A DNA stretch of 50,889 nucleotides, taken from positions 1 to 50,889 of the forward strand of contig JAFQDM010000003.1 of NCBI GenBank assembly GCA_017416065.1, read 5' to 3'. Every line of letters starts with the position of its first letter. The first letter of the stretch is position 1. The DNA is from Ruminococcus sp. (GTDB lineage: Bacteria > Bacillota > Clostridia > Oscillospirales > Acutalibacteraceae). The notes under the pieces were generated by a model. That model was not told the DNA's origin, searched no databases, and saw only the letters and a list, made by a program, of their open reading frames with translations. Both the position numbers and the translations under genes were made by a program. Below are positions 33,932-49,199 of this stretch, in pieces.

Positions 33932-34055
33932 GTGAGCCAAAGACTCACAACTAAGTTTGCCCTGAGGGCAAGTGAAGTTATCTTTGATAGTGAAGTTGTC
34001 CTGCGGACAGTGAAGTTTGCTTTGCAAGAGTTCCTGCAAACTTAACTTCACTTTT
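33932..34055 (+). repeat. Array of variable palindromes with AGTGAAGTT spacers (copy 2)
   Basis: Directly after the pyrF stop: GTGAG-CCAAAGA-CTCAC, spacer AACTAAGTT, TGCC-CTGA-GGGCA, spacer AGTGAAGTT, ATC-TTT-GAT, spacer AGTGAAGTT, GTCC-TGC-GGAC, spacer AGTGAAGTT, TGC-TTT-GCA, then an inverted spacer (AACTTCACTTTT, 34044-34055). As in copy 1 the palindromes differ but keep their pairing. The terminal inverted spacer plus T-run could fold with the last direct spacer as a terminator, lowering pyrE-pyrB expression. Confidence 0.87.
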
Positions 34056-36671: not shown

Positions 36672-37673
36672 TTATTTAACTCTGGTGAATACCATGGGGT
36701 ACATGGAGCTTATGATGTCTGCGGGGATATCTTCTGGGATTTCCCCTGCGGTGCCTGTAAGGGTGAGGGTGTTGTCGTTTACTGTGTATGTCTCGTAAAC
36801 GTCCTCTGCGCCGTCCATATACAGCCTGCCGTTTTCTGCGCGGTAGGTGCCTTCTGCGGGAGCCAGGTACTCACGTACCAAATCTGCAGGAAGCATCTCG
36901 TCAAAGATGGCATCTACGGATTCAAATCCCATAAGTCCCACCATCTGGTCAGGAGTCAGGGGAAGATTCTTCTCCTTTGCGTATGCCTTGAGGAAGCTCT
37001 CAGTGTCGCCCTTCAGGTCTTCCTTCAACGTGTCCACAGTCTGTGTAAGCGCTGCTTCATCAAATATAACCTCATAGGTGCCTTCAGGGGAGAAAGTGTA
37101 GACTGCCGTTATGGGGAAGGTCTCGATGTGGATGTTCTCGGGTATAAGGTGGAATTCCTCAAAGCCCGGCACCATTTCCCCGATCATTTCCTTTGTGGAT
37201 TCATCCTGGGAATAGGCAGCAATAAGTTCGTTGATAAGGTCTGCCGCATCCGTTGTGTTCTCCCATGAGCCCACGATGTCCGGTACATAGGGAAGTAGAA
37301 CAACTTCCCTGCCGACTTCTATACCAATGCAATCTCCTGTGGGAATGGGAAGCTCTGCGATCCACTTCTGGATTGCTGTGGCATCTCTTACTGTGATGTC
37401 ACCTGACAGGTCTGTGTCTGCAAGCACCTGTGTCTCCTGAGAAAGCTCCACAAGTGAAGCCAAGTGCTTCTGAATGTTTGTGGCATCCTTTATGTTTACA
37501 GTTTGTGTGTTGTCTGTGTCGCCGAGGAGTCCAAGAATCTCGAAGTCAGAATCCGGAATCTCGTCAATATAGTAGCGGTCGCCTTGGAATACAGTGGTTT
37601 TGGCAGAGGCTGTCAATGTGCAGAAGCCTGCAAGAAGTGATAGCACCATAAGGATCGATATAAGCTTTTTCAT
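36672..37673 (-). CDS. Secreted protein with N-terminal dockerin repeats
   Basis: A 333-residue exported protein. The signal peptide is KKLISILMVLSLLAGFCTL with cleavage near TASA. Residues about 48-110 hold two dockerin/EF-hand-like repeats (GDTDNTQTVNIKDATNIQK and ADTDLSGDITVRDATAIQK), here N-terminal rather than at the usual C-terminus. The rest, from VGSWENTTDAADLI (near 133), looks like a lipocalin-like small beta domain with a helical insert; no enzyme motif is recognised. ATG at 37673 has AGGAGGAAG upstream; the 43 upstream codons are unlikely. It may attach to a cohesin scaffold at the cell surface. Confidence 0.88.
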   Translation of the reverse strand: MKKLISILMVLSLLAGFCTLTASAKTTVFQGDRYYIDEIPDSDFEILGLLGDTDNTQTVNIKDATNIQKHLASLVELSQETQVLADTDLSGDITVRDATAIQKWIAELPIPTGDCIGIEVGREVVLLPYVPDIVGSWENTTDAADLINELIAAYSQDESTKEMIGEMVPGFEEFHLIPENIHIETFPITAVYTFSPEGTYEVIFDEAALTQTVDTLKEDLKGDTESFLKAYAKEKNLPLTPDQMVGLMGFESVDAIFDEMLPADLVREYLAPAEGTYRAENGRLYMDGAEDVYETYTVNDNTLTLTGTAGEIPEDIPADIISSMYPMVFTRVK

Positions 37674-37782
37674 CTTTCTTCCTCCTGTTATCGTTTTAAT
37701 AAATCGGTGTGAGAACTCCTTATTCTGTTTGAATAAATAAGCTTCCTCACACCGTTTTCGCAGAATTATTTGATATGTAGCT

Positions 37783-39420
37783 TTAAGATTTGTTCTGAGC
37801 ATCTACAAGCTTTGCGGCACCGTACATCTCGCGAAGCTTGGGCTTTTCTATTTTACCCGTTGGGTTACGGGGTACCTTTGCAAAGATGACCTTGTGGGGG
37901 CGCTTGTAGCGGGGCATTCCCTTGGAGAATTCGTTAATATCCTCCTCTGTAGCGGTAAAGCCCTCTTTAAGCTCGATTATAGCGGCGGCGATCTCTCCCA
38001 GACGTTCGTCGGGCAGACCGATAACAGCCACGTCGTTTATTGCGTTGTGACCGCGCAGGAAGTCCTCTATCTGAACGGGGTAGAGGTTCTCTCCGCCGGA
38101 GATGATAACGTCCTTCTTTCTGTCTACAAGGAAGATAAAGCCGTCCTCGTCCTCTTTAGCCATATCTCCCGTGTAGAGCCAGCCGTCCTTAAGAGAAGCG
38201 GCGGTTGCTTTTTCGTCGTTGTAGTAGCAGGTCATAACTCCGGGACCCTTAACGCAGAGCTCGCCGACCTCGCCCTGCTTCACTTCCTCTCCCTGCTCGT
38301 CTACGATCTTTACCTGCCAGCCGTAGCCTGCCTTGCCTATAGCGCCTATCTTGTGGATGTTCTCAACTCCAAGGTGAACGCAGCCGGGACCTATGGACTC
38401 AGAAAGACCGTAGTTTGTGTCGTACTGATGATGGGGGAAGTATTCCTTCCAGCGCTTGATAAGGCTTCTGGGAACGGGCTGTGCGCCAATGTGCATAAGC
38501 CTCCATTTTGAAAGGTCGTAGTCCTTTGCACTGAGTGCACCTGAGTCAAGTGCGTTGAGTATATCCTGTGCCCAGGGAACAAGCAGCCACACGATGGAGC
38601 ACTTCTCCTTGGATACTGCATCCAGCACGTACTCGGGCTTTGTGCCCTTGAGGAGTACTGCCTTTGAGCCGGAGATAAGGCTGCCGAACCAGTGCATCTT
38701 GGCACCTGTGTGGTAAAGGGGAGGGATGCAAAGGAACACGTCGTCCTTTGTCTGTCCGTGGTGCTTCTGCTCTACCTTGCAGGAGTGACTCAGGCTCTCG
38801 TGCTTGTGAAGGATAGCCTTGGGGAAGCCTGTGGTGCCTGAGGAGAAGTAGATGGCCGCATAGTCCTGCTCAGTAAGCTCCACGCAGGGTGACTGAGAGG
38901 AGCACTCCAGGGTCATATCGCTGTAGTCCTCTGAGAAGGTGGGGCAGCCCTGGGAGCCTGCAAAGATCAGCAGACGGTTTTTGCTGATAGATTCCACGAT
39001 ATCCTCTACTCGGCCTATAAACTCAGGGCCGAACACAAGGGCATCGCACTCTGAAAGATTCAGACAATACTCAATTTCGTCGCTTGCATAGCGGAAGTTA
39101 AGGGGAACAGCCAGTGCACCCGTCTTAAGGATGCCAAAGTAAATGGGAAGCCATTCAATGCAGTTCATAAGCAGAATTGCAACCTTGTCGCCCTTTTTGA
39201 TGCCGCGGGCAATGAGGGCGTTTGCAAAGCGGTTTGCCTTTTCGTCAAAGACTCTCCAACTTATCTCTCTGCGGAAATATTTCTTTTCTGTTTCCTGCAC
39301 CAGGTCGTAGTCGCGCCAGGTAAGGCGTCTGGTCTCGGGCTGGCCGGGATTGATCTCTACAAGGGCGGTGTCTGAGCCGAACTCCCTTGCGTTTCTTTCA
39401 AGCATCTGGATAATAGTCAT
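37783..39420 (-). CDS. Acyl-CoA synthetase/AMP-forming ligase under T-box control
   Basis: A 545-residue class I adenylate-forming enzyme. It has the P-loop-like YFSSGTTGFPKA near 190, the aromatic-pocket segment YGLSESIGPG near 320, LYTGDMAKEDEDGF near 400, DRKKDVIISGGENLYP near 418 and the catalytic Lys in NPTGKIEKPKL near 523. Such enzymes activate a carboxylic acid as acyl-AMP and then form the CoA thioester. The substrate cannot be read from the sequence. The gene is preceded by a T-box leader with a Tyr codon, so expression should rise when tyrosine is short; an aryl acid such as 4-hydroxyphenylacetate is a candidate substrate by inference. ATG at 39420 has AAGGAG about 9 bases upstream. 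Confidence 0.93.
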   Translation of the reverse strand: MTIIQMLERNAREFGSDTALVEINPGQPETRRLTWRDYDLVQETEKKYFRREISWRVFDEKANRFANALIARGIKKGDKVAILLMNCIEWLPIYFGILKTGALAVPLNFRYASDEIEYCLNLSECDALVFGPEFIGRVEDIVESISKNRLLIFAGSQGCPTFSEDYSDMTLECSSQSPCVELTEQDYAAIYFSSGTTGFPKAILHKHESLSHSCKVEQKHHGQTKDDVFLCIPPLYHTGAKMHWFGSLISGSKAVLLKGTKPEYVLDAVSKEKCSIVWLLVPWAQDILNALDSGALSAKDYDLSKWRLMHIGAQPVPRSLIKRWKEYFPHHQYDTNYGLSESIGPGCVHLGVENIHKIGAIGKAGYGWQVKIVDEQGEEVKQGEVGELCVKGPGVMTCYYNDEKATAASLKDGWLYTGDMAKEDEDGFIFLVDRKKDVIISGGENLYPVQIEDFLRGHNAINDVAVIGLPDERLGEIAAAIIELKEGFTATEEDINEFSKGMPRYKRPHKVIFAKVPRNPTGKIEKPKLREMYGAAKLVDAQNKS

Positions 39421-39440
39421 GGGGGAAAACTCCTTGGGAT

Positions 39441-39780
39441 AAAATAAAAAAGCCTCAAAAGCACGGAAAAAAGTGCTTTTGAGGGCGAGTTGATCGCGGT
39501 ACCACCTCAATTTGCCTTTACCTTGCGGCAAAGACCTCTGTGGGTATCTTCCGATACCCTGCCCGTTAACGGGGGCAAGCCGTCGTAGCCTACTGTGCTC
39601 GGCAAATTGTGCTGTCGCCACCCATTTTTTAGGGCTGCGGTGCTCGGCGCTTCGGTACGAAGCTCACGGGATGTATTGGGCAAGGGCTTGCTGTCGGCTT
39701 GCACCGTCCGCCGACTCTCTGAAAGCTACACCGTTGCTTACTTCTTCCCGGTCAATGCTTTTGTGCTTTTGAATACTAAA
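39441..39780 (-). ncRNA. T-box riboswitch, Tyr (TAC) specifier
   Basis: Read on -. Stem I: CGGGA (39746-39750) pairs with TCCCG (39667-39671); the specifier loop lies between these and the next helix GCAACGG/CCCTTGC. Its 3' side is CCAATACA, giving TAC (39673-39675) followed by A, and its 5' side has AGTA. The AGAGAG bulge and a GGTGCAA distal loop are present. The T-box AGGTGGTACCGCG is at 39495-39507; TGGT predicts discriminator base A, which fits tRNA-Tyr. The terminator is CCTCAAAAGCAC/GTGCTTTTGAGG (39453-39484) with a T-run at 39441-39451. No gene lies in 39421-39843. Confidence 0.95.
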
Positions 39781-39784
39781 CTAA

Positions 39785-39813
39785 ATTATATCATTATAAT
39801 TATTTATTGTCAA
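39785..39813 (-). promoter_or_regulatory. Promoter of the T-box/acyl-CoA ligase transcript
   Basis: Read on -: -35 TTGACA (39808-39813), 17-base spacer, -10 TATAAT (39785-39790), a full consensus. The start should be near 39778, just before the T-box stem I. Confidence 0.9.
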
Positions 39814-39843: not shown

Positions 39844-40860
39844 TTAGTAATTACCCTTGTGCACCTCTTTGGAAAGATAGGTAAGGTAATCCGCCTGGGT
39901 CATATAGTATTTAAGCTGACCTCTGGAGGTGACCTGAGGCACGTTGTTCACCTCGATGATGTAAGGGGACAGGGTGCTGTAGTCAAAGCCTACGTCAATG
40001 CCCAGGGCCATTACGTTGTCATCTCCTGCATTTTCAAGCAAGGGTGGCAGGGTGCGGCCTATATGCTCAAGAATGCCGAGCACCTTATCTGCATTTTCCT
40101 TGTAGTCGATCTCTATTGTAGGCTCAGGTTTGCTTGCGTAGCCTCCGTGGCTCAGGTTTGAGATGATGTTGCCTCTTGATGTGCGGGGCACGATGAACAT
40201 GGTCTCCCATTCTCCGCGGCCGTTTTTGGCAACGTTTATGCGGAAATCCATGGTGTTTCCGTCTTTGTTTACAAAGTTCATTCTGGGCTGAACTATGACC
40301 GTGCATTTCTCGTACATTTCCTCAAGAAAGCTTACTGCCTCTGCTTTAGTCAGGGACCTTGCACCCTTGTCTGCATCGTGGAGCACGTAGCCTTCCTCAG
40401 CCCTTTTAAGGCTTATTACGGACATACCCTGAGAGCCTACGAAGGGCTTTACTATTATCTCGCTCCACATTGCAAGAAAGCCCAGCACGTTCTGAGGGTT
40501 TGCCGTGTACATAGTGGGAATCACCATATCTGCAAATTCAGTGTTTATAAGAAAATCATACAGGTCTTTTTTAGAGAACTTGAAGTCGTCTGCAACCCGT
40601 GCCTTTTCTCTGAAGTAATCACGGCATTTGTAGGAGCCGTCGCACTCTATCCAGCAGGGGAGCATTACCCTTTCTCTCTTAAATCCGTCGGGAGTCCAGA
40701 CCCTTGCGTTGACCGTGTCGTTTTCAAAGTCTATGTCATCGTAGCAGAAGTACACCAGGTCAGCTCCGTTTGCATAGCAGAGCTTGATCTTTGCAAGCAT
40801 TCTTCTGAGGGGTACTTCTCTGTTAATTTCATCAAAAATTCCCACTGCGGGTCTTCTCAT
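39844..40860 (-). CDS. YheC/YheD-like ATP-grasp protein
   Basis: A 338-residue ATP-grasp-fold protein of the type called YheC/YheD (endospore coat-associated) in Bacillus. ATP-site features are IIVKPFVGSQGMSVI near 135, VQPRMNFVNKDGNTMDFRINV near 190 and the metal-binding IEVNNVPQV near 310. It probably ligates a carboxylate to an amine, as the superfamily does, but the substrate is unknown. ATG at 40860 has AGGAAGTG 7 bases upstream. It follows the CDF gene by 23 bases on the same strand. Confidence 0.8.
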   Translation of the reverse strand: MRRPAVGIFDEINREVPLRRMLAKIKLCYANGADLVYFCYDDIDFENDTVNARVWTPDGFKRERVMLPCWIECDGSYKCRDYFREKARVADDFKFSKKDLYDFLINTEFADMVIPTMYTANPQNVLGFLAMWSEIIVKPFVGSQGMSVISLKRAEEGYVLHDADKGARSLTKAEAVSFLEEMYEKCTVIVQPRMNFVNKDGNTMDFRINVAKNGRGEWETMFIVPRTSRGNIISNLSHGGYASKPEPTIEIDYKENADKVLGILEHIGRTLPPLLENAGDDNVMALGIDVGFDYSTLSPYIIEVNNVPQVTSRGQLKYYMTQADYLTYLSKEVHKGNY

Positions 40861-40883
40861 GGTCAACACTTCCTGTCGTTAAA

Positions 40884-46238: not shown

Positions 46239-49199
46239 ATGAAAAAACAAACCTACAAACGGATTTTATCCTGCATCTTAGCGCTTGTTATGCTTCTGAG
46301 CATAGTCCCTGCGCTAAACATCTCCGCTGCAGAAGCACAAACAGCAGACATAGCGGCAGATGCTCCTGCGGCAGAGCTTAAAGCCGACACCTCCCTTGCA
46401 GAGGTTGCAGACGGCACAACCGAAGATGGCCTGGAATACTCAATTTCAGATAATGAGGTTACGATTACCAAATACACCGGCTCTCCTACAGAGCTTACAA
46501 TCCCCTCAACTATTGAGGGTTATCCTGTTACATACATAGCTGACTATGCATTTTGGGATGACTCATCCCTTGCGAGCGTCACAATCCCCGAGAGCGTTAC
46601 AAGCATAGGTATTTGGGCGTTTTGCGATTGCACATCCCTTGAGAGTATTACACTCTCCGAGGGAGTTACAAGTATAGGTGGTGGTGCGTTCTGGGGATGC
46701 ACATCCCTTAAGAGCATCACAATCCCCTCGAGTGTAACATGTATAGATGATTATGCGTTTGATGATTGCACATCCCTTGAGAGCATCACAATCTCTGAGG
46801 GTGTCACAAGTATAGGTAATTATGCGTTTACGAATTGCACATCCCTTGAGAGCATCACACTCCCTGAGAGTGTTACAAGCATAGGTGGTCGTGTATTTTG
46901 GGGGTGCACATCCCTTTCGAGTGTCACAATCCCCCAGGGTGTCACAAGTATAGGTAATTATGCGTTTGCGGATTGTACATCTCTTTCGAGCATCACAATC
47001 CCCCAGAGTGTTACAAGCATAGGTGATGGTGTGTTTTGGGGGTGCACATCCCTTGAGAGTATCACACTCCCCCAGGGTGTCACAAGCATAGGTGTTTGGG
47101 CGTTTTTCGATTGCACATCCCTTTCGAGTGTCACAATCCCTCAGGGTGTCACAAGTATAGGTAATTATGCGTTTGATGATTGCACATCACTTTCGAGCAT
47201 CACAATACCATCCAGTGTCACAAGTTTAGGCGATTCTGTGTTTACGTGTTGCTCAAACCTTGAAAGTATTGTTGTAGATAAAAACAACAGTACCTACGAC
47301 AGCCGAGATAACTGCAATGCAATAATTGAAACCGCAACAAATAGTTTGATTGTTGGGTGTAAAGAAACGACTATCCCCGAGGGTGTCACAAGTATAGGTG
47401 ATGATGCATTTGAATATTGCACATCCCTTGAGAGCATCACAATCCCTGAGGGAGTCGTAAGTATAGGCCATGGTGCGTTTTACGAATGTGAATCACTTTC
47501 GGGTATTACAATTCCCTCGAGTGTCACACGTATAGGTAATGGTGCGTTTGAAGGTTGTACTTCACTTTTGAGTATCACAATCCCCGAGAGTGTTGCAAGT
47601 ATAGGTGGTTGGGCGTTTCATTATTGCTCAAATCTTGAAAGTATTGTAGTAGATAAAAATAACAGTACCTACGACAGCAGAGATAACTGCAATGCAATAA
47701 TTGAAACCGCAACAAACAGTTTGATTGTTGGATGTAAAAATTCCATTATTCCATCAAGCATCACAAGTGTAGGAAATTCTGCGTTTAGGGGTTGCACGTC
47801 TCTTGAGAGCATAACAATCCCCGAGAGTGTGACCGACATAGATTATAATGCGTTTAACGCTTGTTCAAGCCTTGAAACTATTGTAGTAGATGAAAATAAC
47901 AGTACCTATGATAGCAGAAACGGTTGCAATGCAATAATTGAAACAGCAACAAACAGGTTGCTTTATGGATGTAAAAATACCATTATTCCATCAAGTGTCA
48001 CAAGTATAGATGATTATGCGTTTGATGATTGCACATTCCTTGAGAGCATAACAATCCCAGAGAGTGTGACCAAAATATATGGACATGCGTTTTCCGGATG
48101 TACATCGCTTGAAAGCGTCACACTCACCGAGGGTGTTACAAGTATAGATGATGGTGCATTTTGGGGTTGCACATCCCTTGAGAGCATCACAATACCCCAG
48201 AGTGTCACAAGTATGGGAGATGAGGTGTTTGGAGATTGCACATCCCTTTCGAGTGTAACACTCACCGAGAGTGTTACAAGTATAGGTTATGGTGCATTTT
48301 GGGGTTGCACTTCTCTTAAAGATGTGTATTATAGTGGTTCAGAGGATCAGTGGAATGATATTGAAATTGGTTCGAACAATGTTGGTCTCGAAAACGCAAC
48401 TGTACATTATGCATGGGATATGCCTGAGATACCCACAGAAGCACCCACAGAGGTACCCACAGAGGTTCCCACAACTGTTCCTACTACAGAGGCAACCGAC
48501 TCTACAGAACCCGTAACAACAGCTCCTTCAACAACACCGGATGTTACAGTGCCTACCACAACTGTACCCGGATCAACCGACTCTGCGGAGGTCACCTTCC
48601 CCGAGGAATACATCTCGGATGAGGATACAGATATCGCCGTAGCAGGTGACACCGCAGATGCAGAGCTTGTGGTATCAGAGATCACAAGCGATAAGCAGAT
48701 CGAGAATATCGACCTGATCCTTGTTGGGGAAAAGGTGTCCAAGGTGTTCGATATTACCCTGCAGAAAGATGGGGTAGAGGTTCAGCCTGACGGCAAGGTG
48801 TGGGTAAGAATTCCTGCGGAGAATCCCGATTCCAGGGTTTATCGTATGGAAACAGACGGAACCCTCACGGATATGAACGCAGTATTCCTTGACGGATACC
48901 TTATCTTTACAACCGAGCATTTCAGCCTTTATGTTGTGGCAGAAAAGGCCGATGAGCCCACAGAGCCTGAGGTGACTTACCTTGTTGGTGATGCAAACGG
49001 TGACGGCAAGATCAACGTCAAGGACGCAACCCAGATCCAGAAAGCGGCGGCATCCCTTGTGACCCTTGACGAGGTGCAGACCCTGGCGGCAGATGCAAAC
49101 GCTGACGGCAAGGTGAATGTTCGCGATGCAACTGCAATCCAGAAATTCGTTGCAGGAATTCCCGTAAGCTTACCAATTGGTGAGGAAAGAACCAAATAA
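46239..49199 (+). CDS. Secreted leucine-rich-repeat (BspA-like) dockerin protein
   Basis: A 986-residue exported protein. Signal peptide residues 1-31 (ILALVMLLSIVPALN, cleavage near ISAAEA). Residues about 80-715 are BspA/LRR_5-type repeats of about 23 residues (pattern SITIPxxVTSIGxxAFxxCTSLE), broken by three near-identical VDKNNSTYDSR blocks (DNA near 47275, 47645 and 47885). A Thr/Pro/Glu-rich linker spans about 727-782, a beta domain follows, and two dockerin repeats end the protein (GDANGDGKINVKDATQIQK and ADANADGKVNVRDATAIQK). The LRR part is more AT-rich than its neighbours and repetitive at DNA level. Likely a cell-surface or scaffold-attached adhesion protein; the ligand is unknown. 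Confidence 0.95.
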   Translation: MKKQTYKRILSCILALVMLLSIVPALNISAAEAQTADIAADAPAAELKADTSLAEVADGTTEDGLEYSISDNEVTITKYTGSPTELTIPSTIEGYPVTYIADYAFWDDSSLASVTIPESVTSIGIWAFCDCTSLESITLSEGVTSIGGGAFWGCTSLKSITIPSSVTCIDDYAFDDCTSLESITISEGVTSIGNYAFTNCTSLESITLPESVTSIGGRVFWGCTSLSSVTIPQGVTSIGNYAFADCTSLSSITIPQSVTSIGDGVFWGCTSLESITLPQGVTSIGVWAFFDCTSLSSVTIPQGVTSIGNYAFDDCTSLSSITIPSSVTSLGDSVFTCCSNLESIVVDKNNSTYDSRDNCNAIIETATNSLIVGCKETTIPEGVTSIGDDAFEYCTSLESITIPEGVVSIGHGAFYECESLSGITIPSSVTRIGNGAFEGCTSLLSITIPESVASIGGWAFHYCSNLESIVVDKNNSTYDSRDNCNAIIETATNSLIVGCKNSIIPSSITSVGNSAFRGCTSLESITIPESVTDIDYNAFNACSSLETIVVDENNSTYDSRNGCNAIIETATNRLLYGCKNTIIPSSVTSIDDYAFDDCTFLESITIPESVTKIYGHAFSGCTSLESVTLTEGVTSIDDGAFWGCTSLESITIPQSVTSMGDEVFGDCTSLSSVTLTESVTSIGYGAFWGCTSLKDVYYSGSEDQWNDIEIGSNNVGLENATVHYAWDMPEIPTEAPTEVPTEVPTTVPTTEATDSTEPVTTAPSTTPDVTVPTTTVPGSTDSAEVTFPEEYISDEDTDIAVAGDTADAELVVSEITSDKQIENIDLILVGEKVSKVFDITLQKDGVEVQPDGKVWVRIPAENPDSRVYRMETDGTLTDMNAVFLDGYLIFTTEHFSLYVVAEKADEPTEPEVTYLVGDANGDGKINVKDATQIQKAAASLVTLDEVQTLAADANADGKVNVRDATAIQKFVAGIPVSLPIGEERTK

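Follow-up and report, generated by a model that had tools for sequence, protein, structure and literature searches.

What is a switch of the tyrosine-sensing type doing in front of a gene for an acyl-CoA ligase? That rumen and gut bacteria rebuild aromatic amino acids from aryl acids is an old physiological idea, and the locus described here may bear on it. The DNA analysed, called the window below, is a stretch of 50,889 nucleotides from contig JAFQDM010000003.1 of the Ruminococcus sp. assembly GCA_017416065.1 (G000; 1.86 Mb, 85% complete). A preliminary description of it had read a tyrosine T-box on the minus strand as the regulator of an AMP-forming acyl-CoA ligase gene, and had proposed that the enzyme serves the salvage of 4-hydroxyphenylacetate.

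A predicted T-box leader upstream of the ligase gene

The leader RNA lies at positions 39478-39764 of the minus strand, where cmscan with the Rfam T-box model RF00230 returns 110.9 bits (E 9.5e-24; gathering score of 93) in a match that spans the full model (1-219). It was found again in a scan of the whole genome, which gave 10 T-box matches across the assembly, and it is the sole T-box among the window's Rfam matches listed. Reading of the sequence places a consensus promoter at 39785-39813 of the same strand (TTGACA at 39813-39808, a 17-base spacer and TATAAT at 39790-39785), and sequence and folding together place an intrinsic terminator at 39446-39484 (hairpin 39484-39453 followed by a U run). 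A ribosome-binding site (AAGGAG, 39430-39435) and the ATG start codon of the ligase gene (39420-39418) were read further on, both also on the minus strand. The T-box motif, stem I, promoter and terminator noted in the preliminary description are all present and, within what sequence alone can tell, regulation of the ligase gene by a T-box is supported.

A fold of the terminator region reaches -22.9 kcal/mol (z -7.3). Taken in isolation, the stretch 39511-39478 adopts the usual antiterminator with a seven-base bulge (-9.3 kcal/mol); when the terminator arm is added to it, the terminator prevails (-24.2 kcal/mol). A terminator and a competing antiterminator 5' of the gene can both form in these isolated folds, and the minimum-energy fold of a longer piece (39570-39478; z -4.75) differs from the usual antiterminator. 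Stem I folded alone does no better than shuffled sequences (z -0.64; 47 of 200 shuffles fold equally well), so that its assignment rests on the covariance model and on conservation. By these features the RNA is classed as an ordinary T-box.

The leader shares with known transcriptional tyrosine T-boxes of the RF00230 family a UAC codon in stem I, a UGGU bulge, an antiterminator and a terminator, and differs from them in preceding an AMP-forming acyl-CoA ligase gene. PMC2494555 names tyrosine T-boxes for tyrS and for an NhaC-type transporter, and T-boxes for a tyrosine synthesis operon and for a phenylalanine hydroxylase gene; in its main text the terms 'CoA' and 'ferredoxin' occur 0 times. Among the open-licence papers searched, nothing on point turned up for a T-box with a CoA ligase or a ferredoxin oxidoreductase and, within that scope, a CoA ligase looks to be a new T-box target.

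The specifier codon points to tRNA-Tyr

The specifier codon was assigned as UAC (39673-39675, minus strand) from the Rfam alignment, the sequence and the relatives. The helix adjoining the specifier loop, located by the Rfam alignment and the sequence and also seen in the fold, pairs CGGGA (39746-39750) with UCCCG (39667-39671), both on the minus strand. The Rfam alignment inserts one U before this helix, and spacing alone would permit ACA; however, A39746 and U39671 lengthen the helix to CGGGA/UCCCG, and this extra A-U pair gives UAC. UUCCG paired with CGGAA replaces the UCCCG helix in several relatives.

The same reading follows from the other end of the RNA. The T-box bulge UGGU (39501-39504, minus strand; placed by the Rfam alignment, the sequence and the tRNA ends) can base-pair with the terminal ACCA (A73) of the tRNA-Tyr(GUA) gene product, whereas all three tRNA-Thr genes found end in UCCA (U73), which is matched by a UGGA bulge in the genome's own thrS leader. 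TBDB assigns specifiers by the same tRNA discriminator test (PMC7778990). UAC is therefore preferred on account of the extended helix, the match of A73 to UGGU and the relative G027, in which the usual spacing yields UAC, in agreement with the codon and bulge picked out in the preliminary description. We take the leader to be specific for tRNA-Tyr, which it would bind in the manner of its class. An ACA specifier, with tRNA-Thr as the molecule sensed, is hardly tenable: its five bases before GAG equal the spacing in the genome's other leaders (read by eye), but U73 of the three tRNA-Thr genes cannot pair with UGGU, UGGA recurs in the thrS leader of L091, G027 has UAC at the usual spacing and a leader before paaK in genome G010 reads UUC in the same geometry as the window leader; this register was rejected on the evidence of the discriminator base and the relatives.

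The ligase and the ior gene row

The gene downstream of the leader (P0001, 37783-39420, minus strand) encodes a protein of 545 amino acids with PF00501 (257.8 bits) and PF13193 (47.2 bits) domains, which places it in the AMP-binding superfamily and bears out its description as an AMP-forming acyl-CoA ligase. The best 25 of its 108 NCBIfam matches are mostly fatty acid ligase models and all fall under the cut-off; the nearest family model, the long-chain fatty acid ligase PRK06187, scores 421 bits against a cut-off of 476, and the best solved relative is FadD13 (242 bits). The phenylacetate ligase model TIGR02155 (PaaK; cut-off 646.3 bits) is absent from these best 25 of 108, the last of which stands at 211 bits. 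The window ligase belongs to the longer AMP-binding/AMP-binding_C type, and not to the PaaK type represented by a protein of 437 amino acids elsewhere in the genome. Its function as an arylacetate-CoA ligase is proposed from gene context.

That context begins on another contig of the assembly (C32), where the gene row reads Na+/solute symporter-iorA-iorB-paaK-ACT. Both subunits of an indolepyruvate-type oxidoreductase, which the preliminary description had suggested looking for elsewhere in the genome, exceed their curated cut-offs in this row (iorA: TIGR03336, 708.1 bits, cut-off 650.9; iorB: NF005325, 279.8 bits, cut-off 230). The PaaK-like ligase beside them matches TIGR02155 across the whole model with 554 bits, below its cut-off. 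The order iorA-iorB-paaK-ACT is kept in all ten close relatives in which iorA was detected, and the symporter heads the row in nine of them, the contig of the tenth starting ~400 bases before iorA; iorA was not found in one of the 11 close relatives (G153). The genome scan with RF00230 shows no T-box on the C32 row, and none was seen on the row of the ten relatives (motif search in all ten, Rfam in four).

The ligase and a second PaaK exclude each other

The relation of the ligase to iorA was followed through an even sample of 150 genomes of the family. Of these, 44 contain the ligase (E up to 1e-100) and 102 contain iorA (E up to 1e-80). Loci of iorA were fetched from 95 of these 102, one each, the seven omitted including G013 and G048, which have the ligase; the 88 loci with at least 1.5 kb upstream form the comparison set. 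On the same strand and no more than 3.5 kb upstream of iorA, 24 of the 88 have the ligase (in G027 a fragment where the contig ends), and 43 have a second PaaK; none has both. In genomes that are without the window-type ligase, iorA has a PaaK copy upstream. None of the 43 genomes with a second PaaK contains the ligase anywhere, whereas 40 of the remaining 45 do (Fisher p 7e-20), and five of the 88 have neither (G101, G082, G096, G030 and G059). On the iorA tree, 7-8 of nine independent pairs on well supported branches change in opposite directions and none changes the same way (p 0.008-0.016). G074, the one further member of the genus sampled, has the second PaaK and is without the ligase. 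The exclusion is most simply explained if the ligase and the second PaaK perform the same job.

Downstream of iorA, among the 82 loci with a 3 kb flank, iorB is present in all 82, paaK in 55 and ACT in 64. A separate scan for orthologues of the ligase, in which 80 loci were kept from 420 confirmed stretches, places iorA inside the fetched flanks of 14 loci (five on the same strand, nine divergent); full 6 kb flanks were available in 44 of the 80 loci, and ten of those 44 contain iorA. In the nine divergent loci and in L091, iorA is more remote, sharing 53-54% identity with the copy in the present genome. In L058, L060, L063 and L073, the ligase is followed, in one case after a symporter, by iorA, iorB, paaK and ACT.

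Occurrence of the T-box among ligase orthologues

Eleven of the 80 orthologue loci, all with at least 83% identity, have a T-box motif 73-89 bases ahead of the ligase gene, and ten of these 11 close relatives carry UAC. In the eleventh (L022), the T-box is cut down to promoter, antiterminator and terminator, stem I being missing upstream of 6001. The motif search finds no T-box motif in the other 69 loci, all with at most 79% identity (five of the 69 have fewer than 300 bases upstream).

Within the family sample, the window's T-box was called by cmscan and those of the fetched loci by Rfam, at the gathering score for 40 and at E 1e-4 for three, so that weaker T-boxes could escape; the motif was used as well for the family loci. 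On these calls, six of the 44 genomes with the ligase have the T-box before it (G000, which holds the window, G058, G108, G092, G043 and G027) and all six read UAC, five of them being distant T-box/ligase pairs. No T-box was found before the ligase in 37 of the 44, and G048 has just 77 bases upstream. A lack of the T-box in orthologues, which the preliminary description had named among the findings that would speak against its reading, is largely borne out beyond the close clade, but the pairing recurs in several lineages. A ligase tree (quick method, 67 rows) requires at least five changes of T-box label, which may reflect five gains or an older presence with losses, both being compatible with the count. 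Judged from sequence, the pairing of T-box and ligase arose or persists in several separate lineages, each time with UAC.

In two of these genomes the T-box and the ior genes come together. A UAC T-box in G058 is followed on the same strand by ligase-SSS-iorA-iorB-paaK-ACT, and one in G092 by ligase-iorA-iorB, ~1.2 kb of unassigned sequence and paaK-ACT, also on the same strand; we infer that each row is co-transcribed. In G010, a phenylalanine (UUC) T-box lies between iorB and paaK (L234, 6199-6438), as if PaaK served phenylalanine and the window-type ligase another acid. Before the 43 rows with a second PaaK, the motif search found no T-box in the fetched flanks.

A proposed route from aryl acids to tyrosine

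The reading that we favour, and hold to be probable, is that the tyrosine T-box switches on the activation of an arylacetate, most plausibly 4-hydroxyphenylacetate, for reductive carboxylation to tyrosine. Under tyrosine shortage, uncharged tRNA-Tyr would contact the leader twice, at the UAC specifier and, by way of its free ACCA end, at the UGGU bulge; the antiterminator would form instead of the terminator, and the ligase gene would be transcribed. The enzyme would then attach CoA to an aryl acid imported from the gut, 4-hydroxyphenylacetate being the likeliest candidate, and IorAB, encoded on another contig, would use reduced ferredoxin and CO2 to convert the CoA ester to 4-hydroxyphenylpyruvate, which transamination would turn into tyrosine. 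The salvage idea of the preliminary description gains from the presence of iorAB, and from the tie of the ligase to the ior row by neighbourhood and by its exclusion with the second PaaK; the choice of 4-hydroxyphenylacetate and the anabolic direction stay suggestions. Several findings tell against this reading: most orthologues are without a T-box, G074 has no ligase, the nearest family model is of the long-chain fatty acid type, the ior rows of this genome and of the ten close relatives show no T-box, iorA was not detected in G153, and the close relatives retain genes for tyrosine synthesis.

The proposal has precedents. In Bacteroides, the AMP-forming ligase encoded next to IOR is reported to be an arylacetate-CoA ligase, the substrates of IORs are reported to include phenyl-, hydroxyphenyl- and indolepyruvate, and the building direction has been suggested for the Bacteroides pair (all PMC13285125). 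Reductive carboxylation of arylacetates, in which IOR works with an AMP-forming ligase, is a system of methanogens, suggested also for Bacteroides (PMC13285125), and adjoining iorA, iorB and AMP-forming ligase genes are likewise found in the relatives studied here; the present genome differs in that its ligase gene stands under a predicted tRNA-Tyr switch and apart from iorAB.

Three other readings of the ligase have to be weighed. The ligase may act on a different aryl acid (phenylacetate or indole-3-acetate) or on more than one, with the tyrosine T-box acting as a general signal of aromatic shortage. We regard this as unlikely, if worth keeping in mind. In its favour, both ligases and iorAB stand behind a UAC T-box in G058 and G092, IORs accept all three arylpyruvates (PMC13285125) and the T-box is absent from most orthologues. 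However, the separate phenylalanine T-box of the G010 paaK gene, and in this genome a tyrosine T-box on the ligase with none on the ior row, suggest a division of labour.

A catabolic role, in which IorAB oxidizes arylpyruvates and the ligases release arylacetates, seems to us quite improbable. Gut acetogen 2-oxoacid:ferredoxin oxidoreductases do oxidize aromatic 2-oxoacids (PMC13290082), and IOR takes part in the conversion of phenylalanine to phenylacetate in Bacteroides thetaiotaomicron (PMC13285125). However, a switch operated by uncharged tRNA-Tyr would then start tyrosine breakdown during tyrosine shortage, and AMP-forming ligases favour formation of the CoA ester (PMC13285125). A switch that opens on tyrosine shortage favours the building direction, and would provide regulatory evidence that IorAB of these bacteria runs that way. 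Finally, an ordinary fatty acid-CoA ligase, which acquired its T-box fortuitously or in connection with lipids, would suit the fatty acid type of most of its best family models (all below cut-off) and its likeness to FadD13, but is very improbable given the iorAB-paaK-ACT neighbourhood, the exclusion with the second PaaK and the recurrence of UAC T-boxes.

On the arylacetate reading, the rebuilding of amino acids from aryl acids becomes testable gene by gene, since the product to be expected can be read from the specifier, and a role is proposed for a ligase that is present in 44 of 150 family genomes and whose nearest family models are fatty acid ligases.

Tyrosine synthesis genes

Loss of tyrosine synthesis was considered as a reason for the switch and rejected. 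Chorismate synthase was not found in this assembly (85% complete), in which PF02153 has a match below its cut-off only; however, all 11 close relatives have a chorismate synthase and a PF02153 (TyrA-type) gene, a few kb apart on one contig, which makes a gap in the assembly likelier than a loss in this genome. With both genes kept throughout the close relatives, tyrosine is probably also made de novo, and the aryl-acid route would be an additional one. In G058 (98% complete), chorismate synthase and a PF02153 gene are both absent, which could be a real loss.

Other T-boxes of the genome and neighbouring features

Specifiers and downstream genes of the other leaders of this genome were read and named by eye. 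Five of them precede pheS (UUC), a cysE/cysS-like pair (UGC), trpB (UGG), alaS (GCC) and thrS (ACC). A leucine T-box (CUC, by eye) at L101 (G000:C23:24000-43900) precedes an isopropylmalate synthase-like gene, followed by an AMP ligase fusion, an ilvE-like gene, VOR-like subunits, an XRE-cupin gene and another AMP ligase; this row resembles a T-box-controlled pathway from isovalerate to leucine. An isoleucine T-box (AUC, by eye) at L102 (G000:C33:24000-33120) precedes a 766-residue XRE-cupin-AMP-ligase fusion, for which MbcS is the highest-scoring NCBIfam model (450.6 bits, cut-off 850). We count it in favour of the arylacetate reading that leucine and isoleucine T-boxes precede, in the same genome, a VOR row with acyl ligases and an MbcS-matching ligase. 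Whether the T-boxes of gut Clostridia (tyrosine and phenylalanine on arylacetate ligases; leucine and isoleucine on branched-chain acyl ligases and VOR) make up a tRNA-sensing regulon for the synthesis of amino acids by reductive carboxylation, from acids shed by neighbours, is a wider proposition that we see as evenly balanced.

A tandem T-box lies before an ilvA-like gene (L010, 1501-1935; G000:C25). Its second copy reads AUC, and the first seemingly CUC, without a clear antiterminator of its own (42.5 bits).

In the window itself, a gene for a YheC/D-like ATP-grasp protein (PF14398, 129.4 bits; 39844-40869, minus strand) lies directly upstream of the T-box, and a Gut-1 RNA (RF01706, 54.3 bits; 33948-34021, plus strand) lies between likely pyrF and pyrE genes (by eye) in a pyrimidine gene row. 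The proteins encoded at 36672-37802 (minus strand) and 46239-49199 (plus strand) have repeats that we take to resemble dockerin motifs, and the latter protein is rich in repeats of the leucine-rich type (by eye).
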